Of a stretch of DNA of 64,000 nt, positions 60-7,101 are shown piece after piece. Within the stretch, counting starts at the first letter, position 1. Every line of letters begins with the position of its first letter. The DNA is from Bacteroides sp. (GTDB lineage: Bacteria; Bacteroidota; Bacteroidia; Bacteroidales; Bacteroidaceae): positions 140,516 to 204,515 of the forward strand of contig JAJQDI010000018.1 of the NCBI GenBank assembly GCA_021202275.1, written 5' to 3'. Under the pieces are notes generated by a model, which worked only from the letters and a program-made list of their open reading frames with translations, had not been told where the DNA came from and searched no databases. A program made the position numbers and the translations under genes.

Positions 60-1361
60 TCAGAGCGAGAGCAGATACGCCTTAAAATCTTCGAACCTCT
101 TACTCATCGGCAGGCTTTTTTTCTTCCCTGCCATAAAGGCCTGCAATTTCGCAGGGATCTCTACTTGCTCACCAATGATCTCCTCCACGGTTTCCAGGAA
201 CTTAGCCGGGTGAGCCGTTTCCAGGAATACCCCCGTCTCACTGGATTGCAGATGTTCCTGTAACGCGCAGTATCCGCAGGCCCCATGCGGATCGAGCAGG
301 TATCCGGTCTGTTCCCATACCTCTTTCACGGTCTCCCGGATCTGTTGGTCTGTATAGGTAGCCCCACTGATCTCTGCGGCAATGTCCGCATGCGATGCTT
401 TATAAAGATCAAGCACCCGGGCAAAGTTGCTCGGATCACCTACATCCATCGCATTGGCTATAGTAGCTACGGAAGGCCGTGGTGTATATACACCCGTTTG
501 TAAATACTGATAGAATATATCGTTGCGATTATTAGCAGCAATGAAACGTTTTACGGGAAGTCCCATCTGCTTGCCAAACAATCCGGCAGTAATGTTCCCG
601 AAGTTCCCACTGGGTACACAGATCACAGCCTGATCTGCCTTGCCCCGCTTTTTCAACTGAGCATACGCGTAGAAATAATAGAATGCCTGCGGCAGGAAAC
701 GGGCGACGTTGATGGAGTTGGCCGATGTCAACAGCAATTTCTCATTCAGCTCGGCATCCATAAAAGCAGACTTTACCAATGCCTGACAATCATCAAATGT
801 CCCATCTACTTCCAGAGCAGTAATGTTCTGCCCCAGCGTAGTAAATTGTTTCTCCTGTATCTCACTGACTTTCCCTTTCGGATAAAGCACATATACATGA
901 ATACCCTCTACTCCCAGGAATCCGTTGGCCACAGCACTGCCCGTATCACCCGAAGTAGCGACCAGTACATTTACATTTTTCTGCCCTTCTTTACGGATGA
1001 AGTAGCCCAACAGACGGGCCATGAAACGTCCGCCCACATCTTTAAAAGCCAGTGTGGGTCCATGGAATAGTTCCAGGGAATAGATAGAGTCTGTCACCCG
1101 GACAAGCGGAGTATCAAAAGAAAGCGTATCGTATACAATCTCTTTCAGAACATCCGCAGGTACATCTTCACCGAAAAAAGCATCGGCCACCCGGTAAGCG
1201 ATCTCCTGAAAAGAGAGTTGATCGATGGTATCGTAAAACTCCGCGGGCAGCGGTTGGATACGTTCGGGCATGAACAACCCTTTGTCGGAAGCCAGCCCTT
1301 TGACCACAGCCTCCTGCAAGGATACCTCCGGAGCCATCTGATTGGTACTATAGTATTTCAT
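60..1361 (-). CDS. thrC: Threonine synthase
   Basis: PLP-dependent enzyme converting O-phosphohomoserine to threonine in the cytoplasm, the last step of threonine synthesis. Seen: 433 residues, usual for the family; the PLP lysine motif LAFKD near residue 107; the phosphate-binding loop ATSGDTGSAVANGF; and the glycine-rich VPSGNFGNITAGL. The ATG at 1361 begins MKYYSTNQ, a normal start for this subfamily. It is the last gene of the minus-strand thrA-apgM-thrC cluster, about 106 bp after apgM. The 59 bases between its stop and the window edge hold nothing I recognise, and no terminator is visible there. The assignment is secure. Confidence 0.97.
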   Translation of the reverse strand: MKYYSTNQMAPEVSLQEAVVKGLASDKGLFMPERIQPLPAEFYDTIDQLSFQEIAYRVADAFFGEDVPADVLKEIVYDTLSFDTPLVRVTDSIYSLELFHGPTLAFKDVGGRFMARLLGYFIRKEGQKNVNVLVATSGDTGSAVANGFLGVEGIHVYVLYPKGKVSEIQEKQFTTLGQNITALEVDGTFDDCQALVKSAFMDAELNEKLLLTSANSINVARFLPQAFYYFYAYAQLKKRGKADQAVICVPSGNFGNITAGLFGKQMGLPVKRFIAANNRNDIFYQYLQTGVYTPRPSVATIANAMDVGDPSNFARVLDLYKASHADIAAEISGATYTDQQIRETVKEVWEQTGYLLDPHGACGYCALQEHLQSSETGVFLETAHPAKFLETVEEIIGEQVEIPAKLQAFMAGKKKSLPMSKRFEDFKAYLLSL

Positions 1362-1467: not shown

Positions 1468-2679
1468 TTACGACTCCATAAACGTCCGGATAAACTGATC
1501 CTTCTCCAGCATCCCGTAGCTACCCGAAGCAGCTGCCTTTTCGTCGTACCGGTCTACCGCATCGGGTTGTATACCCGGATACCAGATCAGGAACGGGATA
1601 GGCTCGGAAGTGTGTGTACGCAACTCACAAGGGGTAGGATGATCCGGAAGTACGGCAATGGCCACCGGTTCGGCCGCCCCTTTCACTGCTTCGTAGATGG
1701 GCCCTACTACACGACTGTCCAGATCTTCGATGGTACGTATTTTCAGAGAGACATTGCCCTCATGCCCGGCTTCGTCACTGGCCTCTATATGCAGGTATAC
1801 AAAATCATCCGTTTGCAACGCCTCCAGAGCAGCAGCCACCTTATTCTCATAATTCGTATCATACAATCCGGTAGCACCTTCTACAGCCATACTACGCAAG
1901 CCGGCGTAATGTCCGATGCCCTGAATGAGATCTACAGCAGAGATCACTGCTCCTTTGCGTATCTGTGGGAAGGTCTCGCACAGCGTAGCCATCCGCGGAC
2001 GGTAACCAGGCGACCAGGGCCAGATGCTATTGGCCGGATCTTTACCGGCAGCTATCCGGCGCTGGTTGACCGGATGATCCTTTAACAACTCCTGTGATCG
2101 CAGGATCAGTTCATTGATCCGGTGGGCCGTAGTCTCCGCCGCGGGAGAGCAGGCTCTCACCAGATGCGCACGAAACGGCTGCAAAGGTACATCGTGCGGA
2201 GGAGTGCAGTCTATCTCTTTGTTCCCTCCGCGGATCACCAGCAGATGACGGTATTGAATACCCGGATGAAAACAGACCTGATCATCTCCCAGCTCCTGCT
2301 GCAGATACTCCATAAGTTCCGTGGCCTCTCCGGTAGTGATATGACCTGCCGAATGGTTCTTGATCTTTTCGTCTTCTATACAGATCAGGTTGCAACGGAT
2401 AGCCATTTCTCCCGGCAGCAACTCAATACCCATACTGGCCGCCTCCAGCGAACCGCGCCCCTCATACACCGTCGGAAGATCGTAACCCAGCACCGACAGG
2501 TTGGCCACTTCACTTCCCGGATGGAAACCCTCCAGTACGGTTTTCAGCAGCCCACTACGTCCCTGACGGGCCAGGAGATCCATATAGGGAGTATGAGCAT
2601 GCTGAAGGAGGGTTTTCCCTCCCAGTTCTTTCACGGGCCAGTCGGCCATCCCATCACCCAGTATAACAATATGTTTCAT
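1468..2679 (-). CDS. apgM: ApgM-family phosphoglycerate mutase-like protein, probable homoserine kinase
   Basis: Metal-dependent alkaline-phosphatase-superfamily protein of the archaeal-type cofactor-independent phosphoglycerate mutase family. Seen: N-terminal GDGMADWP metal motif, NLSVLGYDL with the likely nucleophilic Ser, HIEASDEAGHEG, and the C-terminal metal motif PDHPTP. The track start at 2709 adds ten residues that come from an AT-rich intergenic repeat; the ATG at 2679 (MKHIVILGDG) is the natural start and gives 403 residues. It lies between thrA and thrC, and no GHMP-type homoserine kinase (thrB) is in the window. Members in this context have been proposed as homoserine kinases. I infer that it supplies O-phosphohomoserine to ThrC; mutase activity cannot be excluded. 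Confidence 0.9.
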   Translation of the reverse strand: MKHIVILGDGMADWPVKELGGKTLLQHAHTPYMDLLARQGRSGLLKTVLEGFHPGSEVANLSVLGYDLPTVYEGRGSLEAASMGIELLPGEMAIRCNLICIEDEKIKNHSAGHITTGEATELMEYLQQELGDDQVCFHPGIQYRHLLVIRGGNKEIDCTPPHDVPLQPFRAHLVRACSPAAETTAHRINELILRSQELLKDHPVNQRRIAAGKDPANSIWPWSPGYRPRMATLCETFPQIRKGAVISAVDLIQGIGHYAGLRSMAVEGATGLYDTNYENKVAAALEALQTDDFVYLHIEASDEAGHEGNVSLKIRTIEDLDSRVVGPIYEAVKGAAEPVAIAVLPDHPTPCELRTHTSEPIPFLIWYPGIQPDAVDRYDEKAAASGSYGMLEKDQFIRTFMES

Positions 2680-2685
2680 AAAATC

Positions 2686-2871
2686 ATTTACTATTTGACG
2701 ATTTACCATTTACGATTGATATTACCTCACGTCCTTATCCATCTAATTTATATCGCCCCAAAGGAACCACAGATAATTTAGCATATTATTTACCTGTTCG
2801 CTGACCATTCACTATTCCATTAATCACTCATGCAATTTCAATCGTAAATAGTAAATCGTCAAATCGTAAAT
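2686..2871. repeat. Inverted repeat filling the thrA-apgM junction
   Basis: Two 34-nt arms (2686-2719 and 2838-2871) are reverse complements with 2 mismatches. They are built from repeats of a CGTAAAT-like unit, for example TCAATCGTAAAT. The right arm ends 2 bp from the thrA stop and the left arm begins 6 bp from the apgM ATG, so the element occupies the whole gap. Related sequences occur near 10.5-10.77, 50.76 and 58.84 kb. RNA through it could form a long hairpin within the operon. Confidence 0.8.
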
Positions 2872-2873
2872 CC

Positions 2874-5309
2874 CTACACGTTTGCAATACTCATGATATC
2901 AGCAAATACCCCTGCGGCAGTTACACTGGCTCCGGCACCGTATCCCTGGATCATCATCGGATATTCCTTGTAGCGTTCGGTAGTCAACAAGATGATGTTG
3001 TTGCTTCCTTCCAGTCCGTAGAACGGATGCGAAGCATCTACCTCCTGCAACCCTACGGAAGCCTTGTCGTTTTCCAGCTTAGCCACAAACCGCCAGTGCT
3101 TGTTCTCTTTCTCAAGCACCTGCCGGCGAGCTTCGAATCCGGCATCCAGATAAGGGACCCTCTGCCAGAACTCATCCAGCGTACCGGTAAAGAAATCGTC
3201 CGGCACAAAAAGGTTCTTTTCCACATCTTCCTGCTCCAGCCGATATCCGGCCTCACGGGCCAGGATCACCAGTTTGCGGATCACATCTTTTCCGCTGAGG
3301 TCGATCCGCGGATCAGGTTCTGAATAACGCTCTTCCTGTGCCATTCGGATGGTACGGCTGAAAGGAATATCGGCACTGATCTTGTTGAAGATATAGTTCA
3401 GGGTACCTGACAATACCGCTTCGATCTTCAGGATCTTATCGCCACTGTTGATCAGGTCGTTGATGGTATTGATGATCGGGAGTCCCGCTCCTACGTTGGT
3501 TTCGAACAGGAACTTCACGCCACGCTGGCGGGCAATGGTCTTGAGTTCGTTGTAATTGTCATATGCCGAAGAGGCTGCGATCTTGTTGGCGGCAACCACG
3601 GATATGTTGTGCTGTAAGAATTCTTTATACAGATCTGCGACCTGCGGGCTGGCCGTACAGTCGACGAAAACCGAATTGAAGATGTTCATACCGATCACCT
3701 CCTGACGGAGCAACTCCGGCGTAGAAACCATTCCGCGCTCACGAAGTTCCTCTTCGTAGTTGCACAGATCGAGTCCTTCCCGACGGAAAATGGCATGTTC
3801 GTGGTCGGCAATACCCACCACATTGATCTTCAATCCGTTTTGCTTCATCAGTTTTTCACGCTGCGTACGGATCTGTTCCAAAAGGCTGCCTCCCACCGTA
3901 CCAATCCCGCAAAGGAAAATATTAAGTACTTTGTACTCGGACAGGAAGAACGAGTCGTGGATCACATTGAGCGATTTACGCAATGACTTCGAAGATACCA
4001 CAAAAGAGATATTCGTTTCGGAAGCCCCCTGTGCGCAGGCAATCACATTGATACCGTTGCGCCCCAGCGTACCGAACAGCTTTCCGGCAATGCCCGGCGT
4101 ATGTTTCATATTCTCCCCTACGATCGCCACCGTAGCCAGGTCTTTCTCGGCCTGGATGGGAGAGATCTCACCCATCTCTATCTCTTTAGAAAACTCTTTG
4201 CTCAGCACCTGACAAGCCAGATCGGCATCCGCATTGCGCACACCGATGGAAGTACTGTTTTCCGAAGAGGCCTGTGAAACCAGGAACACACTGATACCGT
4301 TGGCTGCCAGTGTGCGGAAAATGCGGTAGTTGACCCCGATCACGCCTACCATCCCCAACCCCTGCACGGTAATCAGACTGGTATCATTGATCGAAGAGAT
4401 CCCTTTGATCGCTTTGCTTTTCGGATCGCACACCTCCTGACGGATGATGGTGCCGGCCGCTTCGGGATTGAATGTATTCTTGATCAGTATAGGAATGTTC
4501 TTGTGATAGACCGGATAGATCGTGGGAGGATATACCACTTTGGCACCGAAGTTACAAAGCTCGGTGGCCTCTACATAACTGAGTTCACTGATGGTATAGG
4601 CCGAAGAGATCACCTTGGGATCGGCTGTCATAAATCCGTCTACATCGGTCCAGATCTCCAGGATATCGGCATTCAAAGCGGCCGCGAGAATGGCCGCTGT
4701 ATAGTCTGAGCCCCCTCTTCCCAGGTTGGTTACATCACCGGTAGCTTTATCGGAAGAGATAAAGCCCGGCACCAGTGCCACCTGGGGCAGTTCCCGGAAA
4801 GTTTCCTTTACCAGCTGATGGGTGAGATCGGCATCCAGGATATGCTTGCCATGTTTCTGGTCGGTCTTGATAAAAGCGCGCGCATCATACCAGCGCGCTC
4901 CGTCGATCAGTTCGGTTACGATCAGCGAAGAGATACGCTCGCCGTAACTGACAATGGTATCGGCAGTCTTGGGAGAAAGGTCCTTGATCAGGTAGATACC
5001 CTGATAGATATCTTTGAGCTCGTTGAGAAGCTCTCCCACCCGGCGTTGCAACTCTGTCTGTTTTTCACCTTCCGGTATCACTCCTTTCACCATCTCCACA
5101 TGGCGATAGACGATCTCACGGAATTCGTTCTCATAGGCAGAGTCGCCCACGGCAGCCAGTCTGGAGGTCGCGATCATCTTGTCTGTGATCCCTCCCAGAG
5201 CAGAAACAACTACGACTACCGGCTCTGCGGCCGACTCAACGATTTTCTTCACGTTTAAAATGCTGTTCACGGAACCTACGGATGTTCCGCCGAATTTCAT
5301 TACTTTCAT
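2874..5309 (-). CDS. thrA: Bifunctional aspartokinase / homoserine dehydrogenase
   Basis: Catalyses the first and third steps from aspartate to homoserine. Seen: aspartokinase domain starting KFGGTSVGS, with GRGGSDYTAAILA near residue 200; two ACT-type regulatory segments around residues 310-450 (SVFLVSQASSENSTS and INVIACAQGASETNISF); then a homoserine dehydrogenase domain with the Rossmann motif LCGIGTVGGSLLEQI near 465 and SGTLNYIFNKI further on. At 811 residues it has the normal length of a ThrA fusion. It is first in the thr cluster and is preceded by a 120-nt leader containing a Thr-rich mini-ORF, suggesting attenuation in addition to allosteric control through ACT. Confidence 0.97.
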   Translation of the reverse strand: MKVMKFGGTSVGSVNSILNVKKIVESAAEPVVVVVSALGGITDKMIATSRLAAVGDSAYENEFREIVYRHVEMVKGVIPEGEKQTELQRRVGELLNELKDIYQGIYLIKDLSPKTADTIVSYGERISSLIVTELIDGARWYDARAFIKTDQKHGKHILDADLTHQLVKETFRELPQVALVPGFISSDKATGDVTNLGRGGSDYTAAILAAALNADILEIWTDVDGFMTADPKVISSAYTISELSYVEATELCNFGAKVVYPPTIYPVYHKNIPILIKNTFNPEAAGTIIRQEVCDPKSKAIKGISSINDTSLITVQGLGMVGVIGVNYRIFRTLAANGISVFLVSQASSENSTSIGVRNADADLACQVLSKEFSKEIEMGEISPIQAEKDLATVAIVGENMKHTPGIAGKLFGTLGRNGINVIACAQGASETNISFVVSSKSLRKSLNVIHDSFFLSEYKVLNIFLCGIGTVGGSLLEQIRTQREKLMKQNGLKINVVGIADHEHAIFRREGLDLCNYEEELRERGMVSTPELLRQEVIGMNIFNSVFVDCTASPQVADLYKEFLQHNISVVAANKIAASSAYDNYNELKTIARQRGVKFLFETNVGAGLPIINTINDLINSGDKILKIEAVLSGTLNYIFNKISADIPFSRTIRMAQEERYSEPDPRIDLSGKDVIRKLVILAREAGYRLEQEDVEKNLFVPDDFFTGTLDEFWQRVPYLDAGFEARRQVLEKENKHWRFVAKLENDKASVGLQEVDASHPFYGLEGSNNIILLTTERYKEYPMMIQGYGAGASVTAAGVFADIMSIANV

Positions 5310-5426
5310 GCAAGTTTGTATTTTAACGGATTGCCCGAACGGACAACGGGTTGTTTGAATAAAAAAAGTGGTTTTGATTTTGCCTGCTCTTGCAGACGCG
5401 ATTCACGTAGAAACACAATACTATCC

Positions 5427-5489
5427 TTAACCCCTAAGGGTCATGGTGCACATGAAGGTGGTTGTGGTGTATGAATAGTACCTGATCAT
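5427..5489 (-). CDS. Putative thr operon leader peptide (Thr-rich)
   Basis: Too short for the ORF track. The minus strand between the thr promoter and thrA encodes a 20-residue peptide with the run YTTTTFMCTMT, six Thr in eight codons, ending in LRG and TAA. An in-frame upstream ATG at 5507 would add MIETAT, giving 26 residues and eight Thr. It lies about 120 bp before thrA and just downstream of a good -7 box. By analogy with thrL of enterobacteria, ribosome stalling at Thr codons would report charged tRNA-Thr. I do not see a textbook intrinsic terminator before thrA: only a short GC stem near 5385-5400 followed some 14 nt later by a T7 run. The mechanism is therefore open. Confidence 0.65.
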   Translation of the reverse strand: MIRYYSYTTTTFMCTMTLRG

Positions 5490-5525
5490 AGTCGCCGTTT
5501 CTATCATTTCATTTGATAAGTGCGA

Positions 5526-5533
5526 CAAAAATA
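5526..5533 (-). promoter_or_regulatory. Putative promoter of the thr operon (-7 box)
   Basis: On the minus strand TATTTTTG matches the Bacteroidota -7 consensus TAnnTTTG exactly and is followed by TCGCA. The -33 TTTG is not evident at 19 nt. Predicted transcription start is near 5519, about 12 nt before the longer leader-peptide start. The rest of the gap to the insertion sequence (5534-5721) is AT-rich with no gene visible. Confidence 0.5.
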
Positions 5534-5700
5534 AGAATAAAACGGTTCATTCTATCACTTTTTGCGAATAAATTGTAATAAAAATATAGATTTCCGGAAA
5601 AAGCAGGGTTAAAATGTAAAAACACGAAGCGTTTTACAAGGTAAGATTGAAAAGACAAATCTCCTAAGATGATACAAATCTCCTAACGTCATCATCTACA

Positions 5701-5716
5701 TGCAGAGACGCACGGC
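5701..5716 (+). repeat. Half of a dispersed palindromic (REP-like) element, left of the IS
   Basis: TGCAGAGACGCACGGC matches the start of the 42-nt element at 58529-58570 in 15 of 16 positions, and is the inverted partner of the copy at 7151-7192 on the other side of the insertion sequence. Confidence 0.6.
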
Positions 5717-5742
5717 TGATATGCCCCCCAAAAGTTGGACGT

Positions 5743-6540
5743 TTATTCTACTCTATTATTATTTTGAGTTCGGTATTTTACCGGACTCAATCCATTTAAT
5801 TTTACTTTAATTCTTTTCTGATTATAATACTTTATATACCCATGTATTTTATCTTCGAGTTGCTTTATTGAACTAAACTTCTGCAAATAAAACAGTTCAG
5901 TTTTGAGTAGTGCAAAGAAACTTTCTATGGGAGCATTATCATAGGGGTTTCCTTTTGCTGACATACTCTGTATGATCCCCTTTTTCTTTATTATATCCAC
6001 ATAATATGGATGCTTATATAAATGTCCCTGGTCAGAATGCAGGATGAGTCCAGTGTGTGTGGGTATCTTCTTAAAAGCCTTTTCCATCATTTCTATAATC
6101 AGAGATAAATTCATTTGTCTTCCGATCGTATAACTGATGATTTCTCCGTTATACAGGTCCATTATGGGAGAGAGAAAAAGTTTATTTCCCTTTAGAGCAA
6201 ACTCCGTTACATCCGTTGTCCATTTCTGATTTGCTTGCTTAGCCGTAAAATCCCTATGCAGAAGATTATCAATGTCTGTATGGACTTGTGTTTTATAAAA
6301 ACGATATTTTTTAGGTCTTACAGTGGACTTTAACCCTTCTTGATTCATCAGGCGTAAAACCGTTTTATGGTTAAGCAAATAACCCTGCTCTTTTAAGCAA
6401 AGTGTAATCCTACGATAACCATACCGGCCCTTATGGGCATGGAAAATACGATGGATCCATTTTCTTTCCTGTTTATATTTATCATTACTACCCATCTTTT
6501 GGCGATAATAATAGAACGTACTTCGGGCTATACCACTCAC
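5743..6540 (-). pseudogene. IS150-type transposase OrfB (DDE domain), 5' end frameshifted
   Basis: Catalytic subunit of the insertion sequence. Seen: HTH_21-like segment (GRYGYRRI), an rve integrase core with the DDE triad in TTDVTEF, ILHSDQG and NAPIESFFALLKTE, and the usual C-terminal YNQKRI and LSPVKYR. The open frame starts at MSGIARSTFYYY, but the family N-terminus lies upstream in the -1 frame (EHWKVQVIEGLRHTYSLSS), entered from orfA through an AAAAAG slippery run. That frame loses register at the CT dinucleotide run at 6550-6560; inserting one base there restores a normal OrfB. The catalytic core is intact, but the OrfAB product is probably not made without a second frameshift. Confidence 0.8.
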
Positions 6541-6582
6541 ATCTAAAAGAAGAGAGAGAATAGGTATGCCTTAATCCTTCAA

Positions 6583-7101
6583 TCACCTGGACTTTCCAGT
6601 GCTCTTTTTCTCTTCTTCCCGGATTAAGGCTGCCAATTTTTTTAAGTAATCATTCTCTGCACGAAGACGAAGGTTCTCTTTTAAAAGCGCCTGATAGGAT
6701 CTCTCCGGTAAAGGCTCAGGGTAGCAGGATTTACTTTTTTTCATACCACGGATGCGTTTTTTACTAAAAGATTCTTTGCCAAACTTCTCATAGCTCTTAA
6801 GCCAATTCCTTATGGAAGAAGGGGAAAGAAGATATTTGAAAGAGGCCTGATGCAAAGATAAATGATTATTTAATATATCCTCAACCACACTACACTTATA
6901 ACGGAGACTACAGTGCCGGGCACTCTTATAACACAGACCAGAAGGACCATGAATACGGTAACAACCCGTCCAACGACGAATCATAACCTCGCTCATACCT
7001 AAAAGATTACTTACACGACGGTAAGAGTAACCATCATTAACCACTAAAAGAACAGCACTTTTACGATCAATCATACTAAATTGAATTCTGGCTCTTGACA
7101 T
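6583..7101 (-). CDS. IS150-type OrfA, helix-turn-helix protein
   Basis: 172 residues, the size of IS150 OrfA. Two helix-turn-helix regions bind the terminal repeats: an N-terminal one around YSYRRVSNLLGMSEVMIRRW and a second around residues 75-100 (FKYLLSPSSIRNWLKSY). A C-terminal leucine-zipper-like segment (LLKENLRLRAENDYLKKLAALI) follows. The codons near the end contain A AAA AAG, the usual -1 slippage signal for making OrfAB. It ends in TGA at 6583-6585, in the same reading frame as the present orfB ORF rather than in the +1 relation expected, which is a sign of the indel in orfB. Confidence 0.9.
   Translation of the reverse strand: MSRARIQFSMIDRKSAVLLVVNDGYSYRRVSNLLGMSEVMIRRWTGCYRIHGPSGLCYKSARHCSLRYKCSVVEDILNNHLSLHQASFKYLLSPSSIRNWLKSYEKFGKESFSKKRIRGMKKSKSCYPEPLPERSYQALLKENLRLRAENDYLKKLAALIREEEKKSTGKSR

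Follow-up and report, generated by a model that had tools for sequence, protein, structure and literature searches.

A threonine leader peptide, which may respond to methionine as well, probably controls the thrA-kinase-thrC operon of this Bacteroides sp. genome by ribosome-mediated transcription attenuation, as judged from sequence comparison. In this reading, the sensing half has good support, and the termination half is put forward as a proposal. The strongest result is the covariation of P1, a predicted helix that joins the codons directly before the Thr run of the leader to the segment immediately after its stop codon. All positions refer to the window, which is the whole 64,000-nucleotide stretch of DNA that was analysed.

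The thr operon and its leader peptide

The minus strand of the window reads in the order IS3-like transposase genes (7101-5743), an AT-rich stretch, the -7 box and the leader ORF, which two hairpins separate from thrA. The operon consists of thrA, a homoserine-kinase-like gene and thrC, and its product is Thr. In this strain, approximately 200 bp separate the thr promoter from the IS3-like transposase pair upstream of it (HTH and rve/DDE domains; 5743-7101, minus strand). The features of the locus are as follows.

60..1361, minus strand: thrC, threonine synthase (NCBIfam TIGR00260, above cut-off)
1468..2709, minus strand: apgM-type proposed homoserine kinase (NCBIfam TIGR02535 and NF003242, above cut-offs)
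2874..5309, minus strand: thrA, bifunctional aspartate kinase / homoserine dehydrogenase I (NCBIfam NF006959, 1044 bits, above cut-off)
5361..5367, minus strand: T7 run beyond H5, from the sequence a possible zone of termination, not directly behind a strong hairpin
5382..5397, minus strand: hairpin H5, GTCTGC-AAGA-GCAGGC; stem recurs, with altered sequences, in roughly half of the homologues
5398..5416, minus strand: hairpin H4, GTGTTTC-TACGT-GAATCGC, conserved loop C-UACGU-G; changes on both sides at 3/7 stem pairs
5418..5426, minus strand: P1 3' strand, GGATAGTAT, immediately after the stop codon (covariation)
5427..5489, minus strand: leader ORF, 20 codons, MIRYYSYTTTTFMCTMTLRG* (sequence, homologue starts, codon statistics)
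5427..5507, minus strand: longer 26-codon reading of the preliminary description; upstream start not conserved
5430..5441, minus strand: hairpin P3, ACCC-TTAG-GGGT, located at the ORF end and containing the last Thr codon; CCC/GGG stem invariant in 49 sequences
5457..5468, minus strand: four consecutive Thr codons (codons 8-11), ACC ACA ACC ACC
5473..5481, minus strand: P1 5' strand, GTACTATTC, codons 3-6, directly before the Thr run (covariation with the post-stop segment)
5497..5505, minus strand: P0 5' strand, GATAGAAAC; a 5' UTR segment with complementarity to the H4 5' half (GTTTCTA); Bacteroides only, nearly invariant
5526..5533, minus strand: -7 promoter box, TATTTTTG (exact match to TAnnTTTG)

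The preliminary description had placed a short Thr-rich ORF about 120 nt before thrA, just behind an exact -7 box. Both were found on the minus strand, the box at 5533-5526 and the leader stop 117 nt from the thrA start (5309). A box of the TAnnTTTG type lies upstream of 118/119 homologous leaders, and the -33 TTG of many relatives reads ATG in the window. The 26-codon start at 5507 did not hold, as it is not conserved; because the homologues begin where the 20-codon form does, 5489 is the likely leader start codon.

To characterize the coding content of the leader, codon usage was counted over 104 distinct ORFs. We found that Thr made up 25.8% of the codons after the start in the reading frame, compared with 5.8% and 2.4% in the other two frames and 7.8% after shuffling, which is a 4- to 10-fold preference over the other frames that is slightly inflated, as, of the frames that close at the hairpin, the one with the most Thr was picked. 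Met accounted for 11.6% of the leader codons. Retention of the Thr codons in relatives had been set beforehand as a check that could refute the attenuation reading, and they were retained. In particular, among 106 leaders aligned at the stop codon, position -4 was Thr (ACC) in 106/106, position -6 was Thr in 94/106, and position -5 was either Met (74) or Thr (32) and nothing else. Codon -4 lies within hairpin P3 and was therefore given no weight as peptide evidence. At codon -5, all four Thr codons were used (ACA 23, ACG 5, ACT 3 and ACC 1), and RNA structure therefore accounts poorly for a position restricted to Met and Thr. Homoserine is the precursor common to Thr and Met, and it is thus possible that the leader senses Met besides Thr.

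Three leaders (L040, L202 and L014) were enlarged by repeats of a Thr/Met/Gly-rich unit, such as VGTMTSVGTMTHAGIMTCVGTTTPRG in L040. The conserved C-terminus (TLRG/TPWG) was also considered as an arrest peptide and dropped; other families read a similar hairpin as T-P-stop, and the conserved feature is therefore the hairpin rather than the peptide end.

The leader ORF is kept in close relatives, which was the other check set beforehand. The RNA covariance model R1 matched 136/160 genomes of the genus and 89/94 of those of good quality, always in a single copy, and about 5% of the good-quality genomes had no match. All copies with flanking sequence that were inspected precede thrA, and the own genome of the window has its R1 match at thrA only, with no sister element at other operons. 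Matches occur, for example, in the named relatives B. pyogenes, B. heparinolyticus, B. ndongoniae and Phocaeicola oris, and none was obtained in Parabacteroides distasonis. When R1 was run across the order, matches before thrA outside Bacteroidaceae were limited to three loci (L117, L120 and L126), and most of the other matches inspected looked like chance, lying inside genes or in unrelated places. Many other Bacteroidales have no recognisable thrA leader. The ORF pattern M..YY.HTVTSMCTMTLRG* preceded thrA in nearly all of the 30 genus loci first taken. Additionally, the leader before a second, divergent thrA-like copy (L091, genome G068) also carries a Thr run and ends in TITTTTTP*.

RNA elements and the covariation of P1

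Four local elements recur in the leaders, namely P3, P1, H4 and H5, the last in about half of them. The general form of P3 is ACCC-NNNN-GGGT, and its class-wide analogue carries the stop codon in the loop. In alignment A1, 87% of the cells for P3 and H4 were paired, and three H4 pairs had changed on both sides, as seen in the stem variants GTGTTTC/GATACAC, GCGTTTC/GAAACGC, GCGCTTC/GAAGCGC and GCGTATC/GATATGC. Since A1 and the later sets were selected with the loop motif, the invariance of the H4 loop is quoted from a set of leaders selected only by peptide pattern (loci of genus and family that have the Bacteroides-type end), where the motif was present downstream in 52/53; exceptions to the loop exist in L257 and L304. 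The minimum free energy of the window leader alone was unremarkable (z -0.9); the support for these elements is comparative. A further small hairpin, TTGTCC-GTTC-GGGCAA (5331-5346, minus strand), lies approximately 21 nt ahead of the thrA start, and hairpins like TTGTCCC...GGGACAA were observed in L011 and L024.

Pairing was tested by comparing the native duplex energy with that of swapped partners, with the P1 5' strand placed from the start codon. For 85 dereplicated leaders, native P1 duplexes averaged -9.8 kcal/mol and swapped ones -8.2 kcal/mol (z -7.8). The signal was present in 67 Bacteroides leaders (z -3.8) and also in 18 leaders of other genera, where the native and swapped energies were -10.4 and -6.9 kcal/mol (z about -6.5). 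The two strands diverge yet stay complementary, as in TATTATTATCC:GGATAATAGTA of L058 and CATTGTACGG:TTGTACAATG of L147. When the leader was cut into eight segments and all 28 segment pairs were put through the same test, P1 alone covaried, in Bacteroides and independently in the other genera. The other 27 pairs serve as a control because phylogeny is common to all pairs; none gave such a signal in either set, and no conserved antiterminator-type helix emerged. Region 3 of H4 showed no pairing signal with the tail. In Bacteroides, P0 and the 5' half of H4 form a good duplex, and this pairing looked compelling by eye and against shuffles. Because P0 gave no covariation in the swap test, it is only a weak part of the model; it is absent outside Bacteroides.

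A proposed attenuation mechanism and its alternatives

To relate these elements to translation of the leader, a ribosome footprint of -14 to +13 around the P site was assumed. If the A site held the first Thr codon that follows P1, the ribosome would cover a mean of 94% of the P1 5' strand, and one at the stop codon would cover 75% of the P1 3' strand. We propose that when charged tRNA-Thr is scarce, the ribosome would stall at Thr codons 8-11 and cover the P1 5' strand, upon which the leader would refold and RNA polymerase would continue into thrA. With ample Thr, the ribosome would reach the stop codon and leave, and transcription would end at or after H4/H5. The thrL-like attenuation suggested from the window alone is thus supported, as the Thr codons are kept and the covarying P1 places them where a stall would matter.

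A simple scan found no intrinsic or canonical terminator in the window (0 found), as had been noted at the outset, and because of this we infer the termination step. As our best guess for Bacteroides, H4 may act as a weak terminator, either through its own U tract or, as in the window, together with H5. Among the leaders that lack H5, a run of four or more T starts 0-4 nt after H4 in 47/56, against a background of 16%. The mean energy of H4 is -4.7 kcal/mol, and the T run close behind it therefore gives terminator geometry with a weak stem. In the leaders with H5, the window included, the T run lies approximately 31 nt after H4. P0, the 5' UTR strand that a stalled ribosome would leave free, would compete with H4. 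In the fold model of the window, the indices of P0 and H4 were 0.94 and 0.16 with a stalled ribosome and 0.21 and 0.68 with a ribosome at the stop codon; if H4 is a terminator, this contrast therefore has the right sign, with more read-through under starvation. Over all leaders, the modelled change in H4 between stall and stop was small (0.04, p 0.02), and it rose to 0.43 if a second, initiating ribosome was assumed. A last step with H4 as a weak terminator and P0 as its competitor is possible in Bacteroides but less likely than not, and we offer it tentatively. It is also conceivable, though somewhat unlikely, that there is no antiterminator at all, in which case the stalled ribosome would itself break P1, and H4 with its near-invariant UACGU loop (and with H5) would not be a classical terminator but would work by way of Rho or some other factor.

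Beyond the genus, we compared 86 regions that precede thrA in other families within the order and class, a set that includes a few loci of the own family and counts L111/L231 twice. A Thr-rich ORF was found in 31/86, whereas the opposite strand gave 1 and ten shuffles gave 2-10. Many of these ORFs end in a hairpin with the last Thr codon in the 5' arm and the stop codon in the loop or at its edge, and the hairpins differ in sequence (ACCCC-TTAG-GGGGT, AACCCG-TTA-GGGTT, ACGGG-GTGA-CCCGT and CCCGG-TAA-CCGGG). Strong canonical terminators with a matching leader segment were present in L339, L345, L357 and L334; in L339, the leader segment CGGAGGAAGA matches the terminator arm CCTTCCTCC. In four further leaders (L100, L097, L105 and L356), T-rich sequence follows the hairpin that holds the Thr codons and the stop, and the control codons would therefore sit within the terminator stem. 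Such leaders have the build of textbook or compact attenuators at the same gene, and they are the best indirect support for an attenuator in Bacteroides.

The same observations bear on the other ways in which such a leader could work. In Rho-dependent attenuation, the position of the ribosome and the fold of P1, P3 and H4 would set the loading of Rho on unstructured RNA before thrA. The window without a canonical terminator, the variable length of the spacer between leader and thrA and the lack of a conserved antiterminator helix all fit this possibility; however, the T run directly behind H4 in 47/56 of the H5-less leaders is what intrinsic termination predicts, and relatives in the class have plain terminators. 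We consider Rho-dependent attenuation rather unlikely, and weak intrinsic and Rho-dependent termination are both possible as the last step. Regulation could instead take place at the translation of thrA, as the preliminary description had allowed, and the small hairpin at 5346-5331 in front of the thrA start, which the window shares with at least two relatives, would suit such control. Among the loci compared, however, thrA begins anywhere between 68 and 254 nt after the leader stop, and the conserved element stops well short of the gene; control of thrA translation is therefore disfavoured and, in our estimation, very unlikely.

A structured cis-acting RNA, whose H4 loop C-UACGU-G would bind a factor or ligand and whose Thr-rich ORF would be a by-product of RNA conservation, would account for the loop motif in nearly all leaders found by peptide alone and for the compensating stem changes of H4 in other genera. 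It leaves unexplained the in-frame excess of Thr and the codon restricted to Met and Thr that uses four Thr codons, and distant thrA leaders have Thr-rich ORFs yet lack H4, so that this explanation is very unlikely. A functionless chance ORF would agree with the ordinary fold of the single sequence, but conservation in 136 genomes together with covariation makes it scarcely credible.

Relation to known leaders

The principle of attenuation is well known. The thrA version described here is absent from Rfam and, judging from these comparisons, is a candidate new RNA family for annotation: an Rfam scan of the window and the leader region gave no match, and the Thr_leader family (RF00506) had no match across 5250-5760, even at E-values as high as 10, and none at the site in a genome search. 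For Flavobacterium psychrophilum, which belongs to the same phylum, a study of 5' regions reports 'strong clues' that amino-acid operons are attenuated by leader peptides ahead of them (PMC9723704), and the main text of that report does not mention thrA. In B. thetaiotaomicron, leader-like sORFs in long 5' UTRs are mentioned in general terms, with BT_4401 as an example (PMC7366714), and the main text mentions neither threonine nor thrA. Amino-acid sensing is little described in Bacteroides, a dominant human gut genus, and a single-copy, genus-wide Thr leader that is readily recognised by its sequence signatures would be a ready reporter for Thr starvation. The looser relatives across the class Bacteroidia, some with textbook terminators in contrast to Bacteroides, form a natural series for the evolution of attenuators.

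The Bacteroid-trp RNA (RF01692) was described by Weinberg et al. 2010 (PMC2864571). It had no match at the thrA site, and its single match in the same genome (L372, C6:70676-70816, minus strand) precedes trpB. The peptide of this trp leader, MRSVVNTYWWWRPSELRLS, has three consecutive Trp codons; this leader serves as a positive control for the existence of such leaders in the own genome. In its predicted fold, as in P1, the codons ahead of the sensor codons are paired to the segment beyond the stop. Unlike the thrA leader, Bacteroid-trp ends in a strong terminator-like hairpin; it is also unrelated in sequence and has no H4.

Enterobacterial thrL (RF00506) is likewise a short Thr-rich leader peptide just before thrA, in which the Thr codons are the expected sensor. 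In contrast to thrL, the companion codons in Bacteroides are Met rather than Ile, the window holds no canonical terminator, and the promoter type and RNA fold differ. In the attenuation of E. coli pyrBI, a ribosome covering one arm prevents a hairpin from forming, and the signal is the supply of UTP acting on polymerase pausing. A leader of the pyrBI kind would need no antiterminator, as the ribosome itself would block the hairpin; the signal at thrA, unlike that at pyrBI, would be the charging of tRNA rather than the supply of UTP.
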